Assembly (NCBI GenBank): GCA_000310025.1
Contig: FN649731.1
Span: forward strand, 1,557,761-1,612,159
Direction of reading: 5' to 3'
DNA from: Ectocarpus siliculosus
Taxonomy: Eukaryota; Sar; Phaeophyceae; Ectocarpales; Ectocarpaceae
DNA: 54,399 nt
The stretch's first letter is position 1, and each line of letters starts with the position of its first letter. The translations under genes were made by a program, and so were the position numbers. Positions 2,409 to 9,157 of this stretch are shown in pieces. The notes beneath the pieces were generated by a model that did no database searches, was not told where the DNA came from, and saw only the letters and a list, made by a program, of their open reading frames with translations.

Positions 2409-5400
2409 ATGTCAGCAGCGTCGCGGAAAGGCAGCTCGACAGCAGCTGGTAACGGAAGGAGAAAACAACCCGGTAAAGCTAGTGCCACTGCCGCTGCTGC
2501 TGCTGTTGTTCCAGCAGGAGAAGCAGCAACAGCAACAGCAACATCAACATCCCCTGCCAGACGACGGGACGAGCCTCTTGATGCTCCAGGATGGCAGGAG
2601 GTCGGGAGTCGAAGAAAAACTAGCCAGCCCTCCAGTACGAGGGAGCAGTTTCAGGAGCAGCAGCAGCAGCAGCAGCAGCAGCAACGGAATCGAGGAGCAT
2701 CCAAAATGACCAAGCCACGCCGAAGCACCGCTACCGGCAAGAACAACAACACGGCGGTCACTGCTGGGCAGAAAGCGGGCGGCAACAACAACGGCGGTAC
2801 CGCCAGGCGCAACGGCCCACAGCAGGCAGCAGCGGTAGCTGGGAGGAACAAGCACACGCTCTTCGACCACCTCTCGACGAACAACAGCAGCATTGTTGCT
2901 GCTGCGGCGGCTGTTGCTTCTCGGCAACAACCGTTGGGCGGTATAAGTAGCTCAGCAGCGCACCGATTTCAACAACCAATGATACCACCGCCACGGCGGT
3001 CTGCCTCCTCGACCCCGAAAGACTACCGTAGTAGCCGGGATCTGCAGCCATGGCGGGGGGTCTCGTCCGGCGATGCCGCTGAAACCTCCCAGCAGTCACG
3101 ACATCGACGCGATGCTATAGCTGACGGCGGTGGGCGACTCAAGGGAGCGGCACAAAGCTCACCATCAAGTGGGACCAGACGAAGCGGCCCCTACGCGCAG
3201 GGTAGGGCGATGCCCAAGAACGAGAACATCCCGAAGCCGGGAAAGCAGCGCCTCGGTCCTCGCAAGAAGAAGCTATCCACGTTAAAGAAGAAGATTTTGT
3301 TAGATAGGTTGGAGAGATGGAGAGACAAGCAGCACGAGGGGGCCCTGTCGACCCCTTCTGCTACTGCTTCTTCCGAGGAAGCAAAGTGTAACAACCCTTT
3401 CCCTCTCTGTCCTCCGGGAGAGTTATCACCACCACCGTCGCCGCCGGCAACAATCTGTCCGGCTGTCGTCGACAAGTCCACGAGCTACGGTCAGGTTGGA
3501 GGTGCCAATGGCGAGAGAAGTGTGTGGGCAATCACGATCTACAACCTTGTGGACCAGGAGGATGTTGAGGACGACGACGACCACGCGGAGATAGAGCGAG
3601 ATTTATGGGACATGTCTTCGGCGTTCGGCGTCGTGCGCAGCGTACAGGTCCCGCGCGGCACCGCCGTACAGGTTAGCGACGCCGAGGTGTCTGCGGCAGC
3701 CGCAGCGGGGGAGCCGGCTGCAGTAGCGGCGAAGGTGGCATTTGCAACGAACGCCGAGGCCGAATGCGCGAGGGACGGGCTGAACGGCCGAATCGTAGGC
3801 GGGAAACCGTTGCTTGTCAGAATACACCGCTGTGATGGCCACTTCTGCGGCGGCGTTTGCCCTGGTGACCCCGACGGCAGCGGCTTGTGGCGGGTTGCCA
3901 TCGAAAATTTGATCGACGAGGAGGACGACCTAGACGACGAAGATGAGTACGCCGAGATCTCCGCCAACGTTTCGGCCATGATGGGGTGTTACGGAAAGCT
4001 CGTGGATGTCCAGGTACGGAGGAGCAGCCCAAGTAAAGGCGAAGTACAAGAAGATGTCGCAACAAGGGCGGCGACAACGGCAGGAGCTACACAGGCGGTC
4101 GTGGTTACGTTCGGGTCTCTAGCGGAGGCAGAGGCGTGCGTCCAGGGGATAAAAGGGTGCCGTGTGGGAGGAAAAGAGCTTGACGCCCACGTTGTTCTCG
4201 ATTCGGAGCGAGTCCTCCCTTCGAATCCAGCATTCAAGTGCGACCAAGAGCATGCCCACTCATCGGACGTTGCCGCAGCCGTAGCCGGCCAGGGCGACTC
4301 GATGATGAAACAAGAAGCCGGGACGGAACCGTCACCATGTGTTGACCAAGACACCGCCGCTGCAGTTGCAAGCAGCACCGAATGGCGCGTGGTCATCCGA
4401 GGACTGATCGACGAAGACGACCTGCAGGACGACGATGACGACTACGCCGAGGTGTGCTCAGATGTGACCGCCTTGGTGAGCAGTTATGGAGCAGTGGTCG
4501 GGCTTGACATTCCCCGGGGTCGAGAGACCGGCAGCTGCTGCTATGGAGCTGAGCCGGGAGAGGCCGTGGTCGTGTTTAGGTCCCTCCAGGAAGCTGAAGC
4601 ATGCGCACGGGGACTGAGCGGACGGAAGGTAGCTGGGAACATCCTCGACGCTCAAGTCTTGACGCAACCAGCACCGTCGCAACAGGGGCCGCTGCAAGGG
4701 GGGGCAAGTGGTACCGGCCCTCCTGTTGCCAACAGAGAACGGAAGCCGGCAAAGGAATGCCCGCTCCCACAACATCAGGCTTCAAGCCACCAATCATGTG
4801 GCAAGGTTCCAGAGCTTGATGGCTCTGGACCGGGAATGCTGCGAGGCTTCGGAAACAGGGTAGAGGACTGCTGTGGGCGCCCTAAGATCGCCTGTACTGA
4901 TTCGGATGAACCACAGGCAATTGCCGCAGCGGCGCCGCCGGGGCAGTCCATCGAAGGGCCGAAGACTACGGCTCTCGCCAAAGCGGGGAAGAGGATACAG
5001 ACAAAGTACCAGGAGGCAGCAGCGCTGCCGAAACCTCCAGGCGTACGTGGGGGTTTGCCCAACGCATACGTGAACCAGGTAACGTGTGTGTGAGTAGACC
5101 CGTGTGGTACATGATCCGAACGAATTTCGACGGACATCAGTGTATACCTTTCGTTTTCTGGAGGGTGCAGGGTGTCCAGGCCGGTTCAGAAGATCTTGCA
5201 TTTTGGTACGTTCTTCGTTACACCAAACACTTCCCGCCCCAAGCGCGTGTCTGTCGGCGCTGAGCCTTGGACTTTGTTTTCTGGTGTCTCTTGCCGCAGC
5301 CTCCAGACAAGGAGGTTAACGATCTGGTCTTCGAGATGCTGCAACTCCTGTTCAAGTTTCAGGTGTGATAATGAGGGCGGAGGTGACTTCCAATCGCAAC

Positions 5401-7253
5401 AAGTCGGACTGGGGCTTGATCAGGGAAAACGAAGTTCAATATGTTTTGGCCTGGACGGACCATCCCCTAGCGCTTGCTTCGTCTGGAGAGCTCGTGATCC
5501 CCCAGTCACTACATGTTGTCGCAACATGTGACCACCAGGAGCAAACTCGCCAGGCCGTAGTTGACATGCCACCACTCAATTTGACGGGTTGCCCCGCGTT
5601 CTTGTTGGGCGCTTCTGCTTGGACAGGAACGTGCCCGTCTTTCGGACCCGTCCAAGGCGAAGACCAGGCGACGACTAGTCATAGGGCTGCGAGAGGTGCT
5701 ACGAGGCGTGAAGGCGAAAAAGGTGCGGCGCCCCCGGTTCTGCCCGTGTCTGAAAGACAGCAACGTGTGCTCACGATTATATTTGGCGTGTGGCTACTTG
5801 TGCGCTGCCGGCGTTTTGTCCTTTGTCCGTGACAATTTTTCGACGGTTTTGGCAGTTTGTTATTGATCGACTTATTTTTTCGCTGTCACGGGTGTACGCA
5901 GATCATTCTTTCGTAGTGATGTACTGTGGTAGTGTGCCGGCCCCTAATCCGCTTCGTCTGTGAAGCACCAAGAGCCTCTATTTTGTATTCGATCCAATGC
6001 TTGTTTGAGAGATCGCTTCTTTTTGGATCGGGCATTTCTCATGTTTTAGGTGCGCCTTCTCATCGTCGCGCCCAACGTGGATGCCGTTGGGGGAGAAGGA
6101 GGGCTGGATGACAAGGTGGTCGAGATCATTGACAAGGCGCGGGAGGCAGAATATCCCGTCGTGTTCGCCCTGTCCAAGTGAGTCAGCCCGTTTCGAAGTG
6201 CATTATTTCTGTCCTTGCATTTCTCTCCCGTGTGCCTTGTTTTCAAGCGGAACCCCATGTGGCGGACTCTGGTTCAGGACCAGCCGGTGATGGGAAACAG
6301 CAGGGCAAAACACTGCCTTGGGTGTCGTAAGTGGTGCTCGTGCAGCCACCACGTAGGAACTGGTCCGTTGGGCTGAGGAACCGCGTCATGTATGCGGGCA
6401 AGGAGCAAAGGGTAGGCGTGGGCATCTTGTTCAACGCGATACGTTCGCTATTGGTGATAGGAACGCGTGACGAACGGTGGTGTACATGAATTGTCTTTCG
6501 TGTGGACCTGTCGTTAAAAGCTTGACCACCCGTACGGAAATTTTGTCCACGGAAATGCTCCCGCTGTGTACGACGAACTGCGGTGTCCCTCGCCTTATTT
6601 CTCTCACGGATATAATCAATCTCCCTGGTCTGCTCAGGCGTAAGATTGGCAAGGCGCTTGGGAAAACCATCAAGGTCAGCGCGGTAGGCGTTTACAGCTT
6701 CGACGGCGCCAATGAGCAGCAGAAGCAGGTAGGAGAGGGTTCGGCCGCGAACGATTGTTGCAGTCTATGTACCACTCGTCTGGACATCGTGCTTTGTATA
6801 TAGCAGTGCTTGAATGGATTTCAACATCTGCGGGTCGAGGATTGCCAGGACGGGAAGCGAGTGGAGAAACGACGAGATTTCAACGTAGTAGTTACGTCAA
6901 CGCAGAAGCGGTCCAATCGGTATTTTCGTGTCTGAGAGCAGATTGACCGGCGCCCTTGTGAAGCCATTCTTTTGGCTGAGTTTGCCCGTCATCTCCGCCA
7001 AAATTCCCTGACCCGCTAGTTTTTGTCCGTATTTCTTTTCCCTCGATCTGGTACTTGCCGATCTCCGTTTTCCTCATGCACCCTACCCCTCATGGTTCGA
7101 AAGCTGAAACGTCGAATGGAGACCATCAGCTCGCTACCGTCGCCATCCCCACGGCAAAGTGACCCGCCGACAGACGATGCGTTGGCGTCACCACCGAGTT
7201 CTTCCGCGTGTGGTGATTCACAGGACCCAGCAGGGAAAGGGTCGAGAGTCTGA
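2409..7253 (+). CDS. SECISBP2-like: SECIS-binding protein 2-like (L7Ae domain) with three tandem UHM/RRM-like domains
   Basis: Predicted exons: 2409-5078, 5300-5362, 5627-5722, 6050-6177, 6638-6728, 7104-7253 (1065 aa, in phase throughout). SBP2 binds the SECIS element of selenoprotein mRNAs so that UGA is read as selenocysteine. Exons 2-6 carry the family signature in order: KEVNDLVFEMLQLLFKFQ, then DPSKAKTRRRLVIGLREVL, LLIVAPNVDAVGGEGGLDD, YPVVFALSK, and RKIGKALGK followed by VSAVGVYSFDGA, which together form the L7Ae/L30e fold. Exon 1 ends ...AYVNQ, continuing the conserved SBP2 segment into exon 2, so the large exon belongs to this gene. Its product has a low-complexity N-terminus with a Gln run (about residues 82-91), a Lys-rich helix (about 283-307), and three RRM/UHM-like units (about 371-474, 492-597, 657-751). 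Start: first in-frame ATG. The last exon is the least certain; its acceptor 'cgaaag' is weak. Confidence 0.8.
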
Positions 7254-9157
7254 TGGTTCAATTTCCCTCACATCTGCTGTTATGCATTCCTGCGCATTCG
7301 CACGTTTGTGGTGCCTGGTAGCAGCATTATGCGTCGAGCCTCTTAGCGCTCCGACGCGAACTAACGGGAAACTCCCTAGGATGATGTTTCACCCTCATCT
7401 TTTCCGTTTTGCGTCTGTGACCAAATGACAGTTGCAGCTCGTCCTGGGTCTTTTTGGGTGAGCCTTTTTGTCTGGGGTAGCGGGAACCCTACATCGATTT
7501 GCTTATTTATGTACGAGAGCTGTACATGGTTTGTCACGTGATGTGCTATGGGAAGACCGATCGACCTTGGCCGATGCCCGTCTGTATGTTGTCGGTATGA
7601 CAATTTTTTGTGGCCATTTAGCTGGCATTTGCGTATCGGTACAGTAATACCCTTGTTGTCGACATAGAATGCAAAGGGTTCCAGTTGTAGCGCTGGTGGC
7701 TTAGGTTGCGATGCCACCCCGGACTGTTGCCGGGCAAGTTGCTGCAATGCCGGACTATTGCTGGTTGCTACGATTGTTGTTGTTGTTGTTGTTGTCTTTT
7801 CACTCGGTACACCGCTCTGACTACGTCTGACTGGTCAAGAAACGACTTTTCGTGGTCACAACGAGACCACCATAGATAGGTATGGCCAAGTTTGAGACCC
7901 AGAAGAATATCACCAGTCATGAGCAAGAATTCTAGCTCCTAGCGTAACCAAAACGAGACAGATGTCAGCGCGAGGTATGGAAACAAGCCTAGGGAGGTAT
8001 AGCCCGCCGTGCAGAATTGAAGCCTCAGTCAACAACCAACATAACAATTGCAAAGAGAGATAATGGTTGAGGGTCAGCGGTTGAGCTAAGTCGCCGAAGT
8101 CTGCCAGCGCAGCTCTACCTGCAACGAATGCATCAACGTGCTGAAAAGTGGCATGCATGCCACTGGTTGCGTTCAAAAACAGTCGCTGAACAAAAGAGGC
8201 CAAGGCTTGCGTGGCCAACCTCTCGCTCGCCCCTCGCTCCACTTTGCGTCTACCTCAGCCTGTGTGCCCCCTAGGGCTATTGGCTACAACGTCATCCCTG
8301 TTTTCGGCGTAGTCTAGCCCCACCCACGTTGAGCGCATGCGCTGCGAAGGTTGACTTCTTAGATCAGTACCCGTACAACGGGCGGATCATGGTTATTCGA
8401 GTCATTTTATTAGCAACATCAGCGCACACCCAAGGGCGGGAAAACTCCGCGTTGTCGGCACTCTGTGAAGTACGGTGATACAAGTGGGTGTAGCTGAGAA
8501 CGCCCCGGGGGACGCCAAAGTGTATTATGGGCAACCGACAGCAAATGGCATACTGGGAGGGTCTAACCCCCAAAACGGCACACCACGAAAGAGCTTGACT
8601 CGGGAAATGACCCCGAGGCGATACGCTGATTGTCTGAGACCACCGACTACCATTTTCTGGTGGCTTACGCGGAGGGTAGTACCAAAAATACTGCGATACT
8701 CTCTCAAAATACTTCTCTTTTTGGCCGTGTGCGGGAACAACATAACTCTTCTCCGCCAAAAAGAGCTACAGGGTTGTAATCCTGGAGACTATCGACGAGA
8801 TACTTAGGTGGCCTTTTTTGCAATGCCTGGATACATGTCTCAATGCCTGTTCACCCTTCTCACAATTCACCAACGAGTTTCGTATTGGAACTGGAAGATT
8901 TCGCCCACAAGCCACCCGCGCGCGATGTTCTTCCGACTCGAGCGCGTCCGCTCGATCTCGGTACAGATCGTACTGGCGGTTACAAAACCTGTCGCTCTCG
9001 TTCTGGATGTGGGTGACCTCTTCGGCACCACCCGATGTTGTCGCGTTTGAGGTCCGCGACTTCTTCCCGCAAACGTTGATGACCACGCCTCTCAGAATGC
9101 TAGGTTCACAAAATTACGGCGTCCAATCCGACAGCTAGACTCGTGTGTCCAAGGGAG
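7254..9157. other. intergenic region between two convergent genes
   Basis: This lies between the stop codons of the SBP2-like gene (+) and the TPR gene (-), so both 3' untranslated regions must be here. A short TTG microsatellite sits near 7773-7795. Antisense-overlapping frames at 8364-9138 have no recognisable motif or splice context. I see no RNA gene. Confidence 0.5.

Follow-up and report, generated by a model that had tools for sequence, protein, structure and literature searches.

A Predicted SBP2-Family Protein of Ectocarpus siliculosus with Three UHM-Like Domains between Its SID and RNA-Binding Domain

SBP2 is the specificity factor for the reading of UGA as selenocysteine (Sec). Here, we report a predicted SBP2 gene of the brown alga Ectocarpus siliculosus, located on the plus strand of a 54,399-nucleotide stretch of GenBank assembly GCA_000310025.1 (contig FN649731.1, positions 1,557,761 to 1,612,159, forward strand; below, the window, with position 1 as its first letter). 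Its product is predicted to carry three domains resembling the U2AF homology motif (UHM) in the linker between the two conserved parts of SBP2, the SID and the RNA-binding domain (RBD). Given the domain content, the domain order, the support for a single chain, and the residue losses read from the sequence, we consider it probable (about 70%) that this is an SBP2-family protein binding the selenocysteine insertion sequence (SECIS), with a UHM-derived linker array that would serve as an acidic protein-docking tether. The features of the gene, in window positions, are as follows.

2409..5078, plus strand: exon 1, coding, 890 amino acids; low-complexity N terminus, SID core motif, three UHM-like domains, and linker
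3234..3350, plus strand: SID core motif (amino acids 276 to 314), inside a stretch aligned to SBP2 513-555
3507..3830, plus strand: UHM-like domain 1; NCBIfam TIGR01642 positions 406-492, E 6.6e-7; top PDB match U2AF65 UHM, E 6e-5
3882..4211, plus strand: UHM-like domain 2; TIGR01642 positions 415-493, E 8e-6; AlphaFold (AF2) pLDDT 74.0; top Foldseek match Tat-SF1 UHM, E 6.5e-5
4374..4673, plus strand: UHM-like domain 3; TIGR01642 positions 416-494, E 2.8e-8; top PDB match U2AF65 UHM, E 4.6e-6
5300..5362, plus strand: exon 2, start of the RBD (PPDKEVND...FKFQ); SBP2 similarity runs in from AYVNQ of exon 1
5627..5722, plus strand: exon 3, ERARLSDPSKAKTRRRLVIGLREVLRGVKAKK; based on open frame and SBP2 PDB match
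6050..6177, plus strand: exon 4, L7Ae core (VRLLIVAPNV...FALSK); based on open frame and SBP2 PDB match
6638..6728, plus strand: exon 5, where the recognisable L7Ae domain ends (RKIGKALGK...GANEQQKQ); based on SBP2 PDB match
7104..7253, plus strand: last exon of the original prediction, unconfirmed; AG acceptor and open frame to a stop

SBP2 identity and predicted single chain

The protein encoded by exons 2 to 5 (126 amino acids) had as its best PDB match human SBP2 from the structure of the Sec-decoding ribosome (7zjw_B, E 2.4e-31, residues 639-758), followed by a ribosomal L7a-type protein (E 0.005). The joined protein matched Pfam Ribosomal_L7Ae at 36.4 bits (cut-off, 22.1), so that an SBP2-type L7Ae module, predicted earlier from the letters of the sequence, is borne out both by the PDB and by the profile search for exons 2 to 5. 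KFQER, which spans exons 2 and 3, is the counterpart of human RFQDR, a motif reported to be needed for Sec insertion, whereas neither SECIS binding nor ribosome binding requires it (PMC2746813). The SID core motif, KFQER, and an L7Ae domain with GLREV follow one another in the same order as in animal SBP2/SECISBP2 and SBP2L. All four genome matches of an RBD query were exons of this gene, and no second SBP2 was found by it. A Pfam L7Ae search made exon by exon across the genome returned five matches, none of them at this locus, likely because the exons are short.

Exon 1 forms one uninterrupted reading frame of 890 codons that starts with the ATG at 2409 and runs to a donor at 5078/5079, where gtaacg directly follows AACCAG; read unspliced, it meets a stop at 5091-5093, beginning 13 bases past the exon end. 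Exons 2 to 5 have GT/AG borders throughout, and exons 1 to 5 joined give 1,016 residues ending in GANEQQKQ. When the end of exon 1 was added to the query, the alignment to human SBP2 started at AYVNQ and spanned the exon 1/2 junction (residues 631-760, E 3.4e-32), keeping Y-x-x-Q-x-x-x-K-E-V across a phase-0 border.

A second tie between exon 1 and the L7Ae exons is the SID core motif (human K517-R543), present at amino acids 276 to 314. Against the SBP2 segment (KxGKQRxxPxxKKxxxLKKxIL..RxER) this stretch had a local score of 72, which none of 2,000 shuffles reached (maximum, 59), and its frame ranked first among the 929 stop-to-stop segments of at least 40 amino acids in the window (runner-up, 42). 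With a 63-amino-acid query from exon 1, SBP2 513-555 came first among three PDB matches. Since the SID is described as unique to the SBP family in PMC2746813, its presence in exon 1 links this exon with the L7Ae exons by evidence separate from the junction. The sequence therefore supports one predicted SBP2 chain, as had been proposed from the junction, and the SID adds to that proposal. In the tail of the SID, at 3306-3323, RLERWR places a Trp (amino acid 304) beside basic residues where human SBP2 has RQERKQR; the segment bears a faint resemblance to a UHM ligand motif (ULM) and precedes the UHM-like array.

The UHM-like domains had been described as lying ahead of the conserved SBP2 core; this is corrected here, the domains being placed by the predicted protein in the linker between the SID (exon 1) and the RBD and not in an N-terminal extension. 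The array measures about 390 amino acids from first to last domain; in human SBP2, about 75 residues separate the aligned parts of SID and RBD. In PMC2746813, the mammalian sequence between SID and RBD is described as degenerate and dispensable for activity, and the SID-RBD interaction as essential. This site would thus be expected to tolerate an insertion, which would be in a good position for regulation or tethering. No description of an SBP2 with UHM-like domains was found in the open-licence literature (titles and abstract starts, among the matches listed), and no open-licence paper was returned for "SECIS-binding protein" together with "U2AF homology motif." The word RRM is absent from the text of PMC2746813, as are stramenopile, Phytophthora, and Thalassiosira.

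Three UHM-like repeats

That exon 1 holds three repeated domains was evident from pairwise comparison, with local scores of 146, 137, and 181 against maxima of 60, 56, and 55 in 1,000 shuffles each and identities of 34 to 40%. The pattern first written for them was approximate: the repeats are real, and the exact motif does not hold throughout (IRGL and YAEV in repeat 3, DHAEI in repeat 1, and GCRV instead of GRxV in repeat 2). Their likeness to the U2AF homology motif was upheld by the NCBIfam profile of the U2AF large subunit (TIGR01642), which matched exon 1 in three stretches (E 2.2e-20). The score of 72.6 bits stays below the whole-protein cut-off of 310.3 bits, as expected for an exon carrying one kind of domain. 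Each repeat alone matched within positions 406-494 of 510, which we take to be the C-terminal UHM of U2AF. Pfam RRM_1 matched exon 1 at 38.3 bits (cut-off, 20.7) and also repeats 1 and 3 alone, and the U2AF_lg profile outscored RRM_1 in bits for every repeat. In PDB searches with phmmer, the U2AF65 UHM came first for repeats 1 and 3. A genome search with repeat 3 gave three matches, all within this gene, while an alignment of the repeats run against contigs of prokaryote genomes gave 593 pattern-matching stretches, none of which was confirmed.

Folds were compared for repeats 2 and 3. The model of repeat 3 (pLDDT 79.8, pTM 0.70) had the U2AF65 UHM at Foldseek ranks 1 to 5 and the Tat-SF1 UHM at rank 11; for the model of repeat 2 (pTM 0.63), the Tat-SF1 UHM ranked first and the U2AF65 UHM third, with ordinary RRMs interspersed. 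VIA-align placed repeat 3 closest to the U2AF65 UHM (Z 13.0, rmsd 2.5, 92 aligned residues): ranks 1 to 5, 9, and 10 were labelled U2AF65 or Tat-SF1 UHM (ranks 1 and 4 carrying the label RNA binding domain of U2AF 2), and ranks 6 to 8 were chains of the 17S U2 snRNP whose numbering appears to fit Tat-SF1. The margin is narrow, at about one Z unit: the top ten have Z 12.1 to 13.0, and other RRMs follow from 11.7. Tat-SF1, a U2 snRNP factor with a single UHM and an intact ligand pocket, and the U2AF large subunit (U2AF65/U2AF2) are accordingly the nearest known relatives; in sequence, repeats 1 and 3 match the latter best, as does repeat 3 in fold. A U2AF65-type UHM sequence is thereby found in all three repeats (in repeat 2 by TIGR01642 alone) and the fold in repeats 2 and 3.

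Pocket and RNA-contacting residues

According to PMC7648758, UHMs are noncanonical RRMs whose RNA-binding motifs are degenerate; helix B is followed by Arg-X-Phe, and helix A is more acidic. In SPF45, as described there, Arg375, Glu329, and Phe377 make up the tryptophan pocket. The repeats share with the U2AF65 UHM the acidic approach to helix A and the degenerate RNP motifs and differ from it in their three tandem copies and in the pocket. In the loop after helix B, repeats 1 to 3 read RIV, CRV, and RKV, the last aligned with RKF of U2AF65; the Phe of Arg-X-Phe is Val in all three, and the Arg is kept in two. In helix A, Met, Met, and Leu stand where U2AF65 has the Glu of DEC, which we take to be the pocket residue equivalent to Glu329 of SPF45. 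Helix A is acidic: over 40 residues from the (V/I)D(E/Q)(E/D)D motif, which cover the helix and the stretch before it, repeats 1 to 3 have 12, 12, and 13 Asp/Glu but 3, 3, and 2 Lys/Arg.

As a control from the same genome, 23 matches to TIGR01642 were collected; 2 of 14 prokaryote control genomes were also positive, so the search counts weak RRM matches. Six of the 23 reach the UHM part. Two of these are the present gene, and the other four were read: Arg-X-Phe is intact in all three readable segments (RQF, RTF, and RKF), and the helix A Glu is present in both readable ones (EEC in each). In this small sample, the loss of pocket residues, as read from the letters, is specific to the SBP2 copies. 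Substitution of both the Phe and the Glu in every repeat makes canonical binding of a ULM tryptophan doubtful.

Aromatic residues at the RNA-contacting RNP1 and RNP2 positions, as in a canonical RRM, were found in none of the three repeats by an alignment read by eye. At what we take to be the consensus positions, RNP2 position 2 is Thr, Ala, and Val, and RNP1 positions 3/5 are Ala/Lys, Ala/Val, and Glu/Val in repeats 1 to 3; RNP1 position 8 retains its Phe.

Proposed role and alternatives

By homology, the protein would bind SECIS, and its RBD and SID together would bring in the Sec-tRNA elongation factor when the UGA codon is reached, as they do in animals. Three UHM-derived domains would have been inserted into the SID-RBD linker, which could accept an insertion since its mammalian counterpart is reported to be dispensable, and multiplied. 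Because the RRM aromatics and the UHM pocket residues are gone, we propose that neither RNA nor standard ULM peptides are ligands of the array and that it would act as a tandem acidic tether, keeping another factor, of the messenger ribonucleoprotein (mRNP), ribosome, or assembly type, attached to the SECIS complex. We infer that the repeats are diverged, acidic, UHM-derived docking modules, and protein docking through another surface or a remodelled pocket seems the most economical reading.

The original prediction saw in this combination a link between splicing-type domains and Sec insertion. The part of it that stands is that UHM-like domains and SBP2 are predicted in one chain; a role in splicing is weakened by the loss of the Phe and Glu pocket residues in all three repeats. 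As an alternative, the array would consist of true UHMs that bind ULM tryptophan peptides of splicing factors of the SF1 or SF3B1 type and couple assembly of the SECIS complex to splicing or nuclear mRNP maturation. The U2AF65 and Tat-SF1 UHMs are indeed the nearest relatives in sequence and fold, and it has been suggested that mammalian selenoprotein mRNPs are assembled in the nucleus (PMC9496622), which, if so, would provide a setting for UHM-type docking. With the Phe and Glu each kept in no repeat and the Arg in two, however, and with both features intact in the other readable UHM segments of the genome, we regard true UHMs as unlikely. Much the same low weight is given to a regulatory Sec insertion module, whose remodelled pockets would bind a dedicated partner or the protein's own SID-tail Trp (ILLDRLERWRDKQ, W304) in a UHM-ULM-like manner, holding SID and RBD apart or together and so switching Sec insertion by splicing or mRNP state.

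Repeats that act as RNA-binding RRMs, adding affinity for SECIS or mRNA, would agree with the RRM_1 matches and with the RRM fold, ordinary RNA-binding RRMs being close behind in the fold lists; the nonaromatic residues at the RNP positions checked, the acidity ahead of and within helix A, and the higher score of the U2AF_lg profile for each repeat make this distinctly improbable. Still less probable is a pair of proteins acting in trans, with unspliced exon 1 giving a SID-UHM protein that ends at 5091-5093 and the RBD coming from a separate transcript. The nearby in-frame stop would allow it, and SID and RBD can function as separate pieces and are encoded at separate loci in the mosquito Aedes aegypti (PMC2746813). 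Against it stand the conserved phase-0 junction, the GT/AG borders, and the open stretch directly 5' of PPDKEV (frame 5261), which contains no Met, the first in-frame Met lying inside exon 2.

Several points weigh against a single SBP2 chain with a docking array. Repeat 2 alone gave no Pfam match and no UHM by PDB phmmer, and the AlphaFold models of repeats 2 and 3 were built on three-row alignments; a modelled structural match to UHMs is no proof of function, a ULM pocket could be rebuilt from other residues, and the docking partner of the array is putative. The arrangement was seen in one genome only, and the one-chain reading is a prediction from genomic letters. By database E value alone (0.072), the SID match is weak. 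Its second block, QLDL (human SBP2 449-452), was not found, 1,755 of 2,000 shuffles scoring as high. In protostomes and unicellular eukaryotes, this block is reported to be no more than a mosaic (PMC2746813). The gene's 3' end is unproven, as is the final helix that should follow the L7Ae core: when 6729-7700 was scanned with the C-terminal helix of human SBP2, the best score was 26 and the 95th percentile of the shuffles 27, which leaves the exon at 7104-7253, predicted earlier as the continuation of SBP2, unsupported. An alternative last exon at about 6940-7015 was also placed in a PDB query; the SBP2 match stopped before it, and it was rejected as unsupported.

Selenocysteine machinery in the genome

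A tRNA-Sec was found in the genome (contig C18) at 69.6 bits (gathering score, 47), a cut-off that was also exceeded in 5 of the 14 control genomes. The SepSecS family gave six exon matches on one contig, covering profile positions 18-388; its control was positive in 3 of the 14 genomes, Bacillus subtilis included, as related enzymes can match. Together, these matches point to an organism that uses Sec. A genome search for SECp43/Trnau1ap gave no match and was uninformative, the control likewise being positive nowhere. Brown and yellow-green algae are reported to have only five to six selenoprotein genes (PMC7539508).

Two further tRNA-like sequences were noted. One is a second tRNA-Sec-like match elsewhere in the genome (G000:C11:2542444-2542523, locus L016; 37.9 bits, below the gathering score). 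The other, recognised by eye at 2130-2224 of the window on the minus strand, about 185 bases ahead of the SBP2 start, received no call from ARAGORN or Rfam. It is a high-copy repeat: all 40 candidates scored out of 1,040 matched, its own place included, the other 39 at 93 to 96% identity over the first 84 to 97 bases or so. This repeat may be a tRNA-derived short interspersed element.

Significance

Two questions are, in our view, open in this field, namely, how SID and RBD communicate and how the mRNAs of selenoproteins come to be marked before they are translated. Three folded docking domains set exactly between two essential parts of SBP2 would be a natural test of both. The predicted protein also places UHM-type domains in a setting other than the splicing proteins for which they are best known, and its arrangement could help to reveal the ties between selenoprotein production and other RNA-handling steps.

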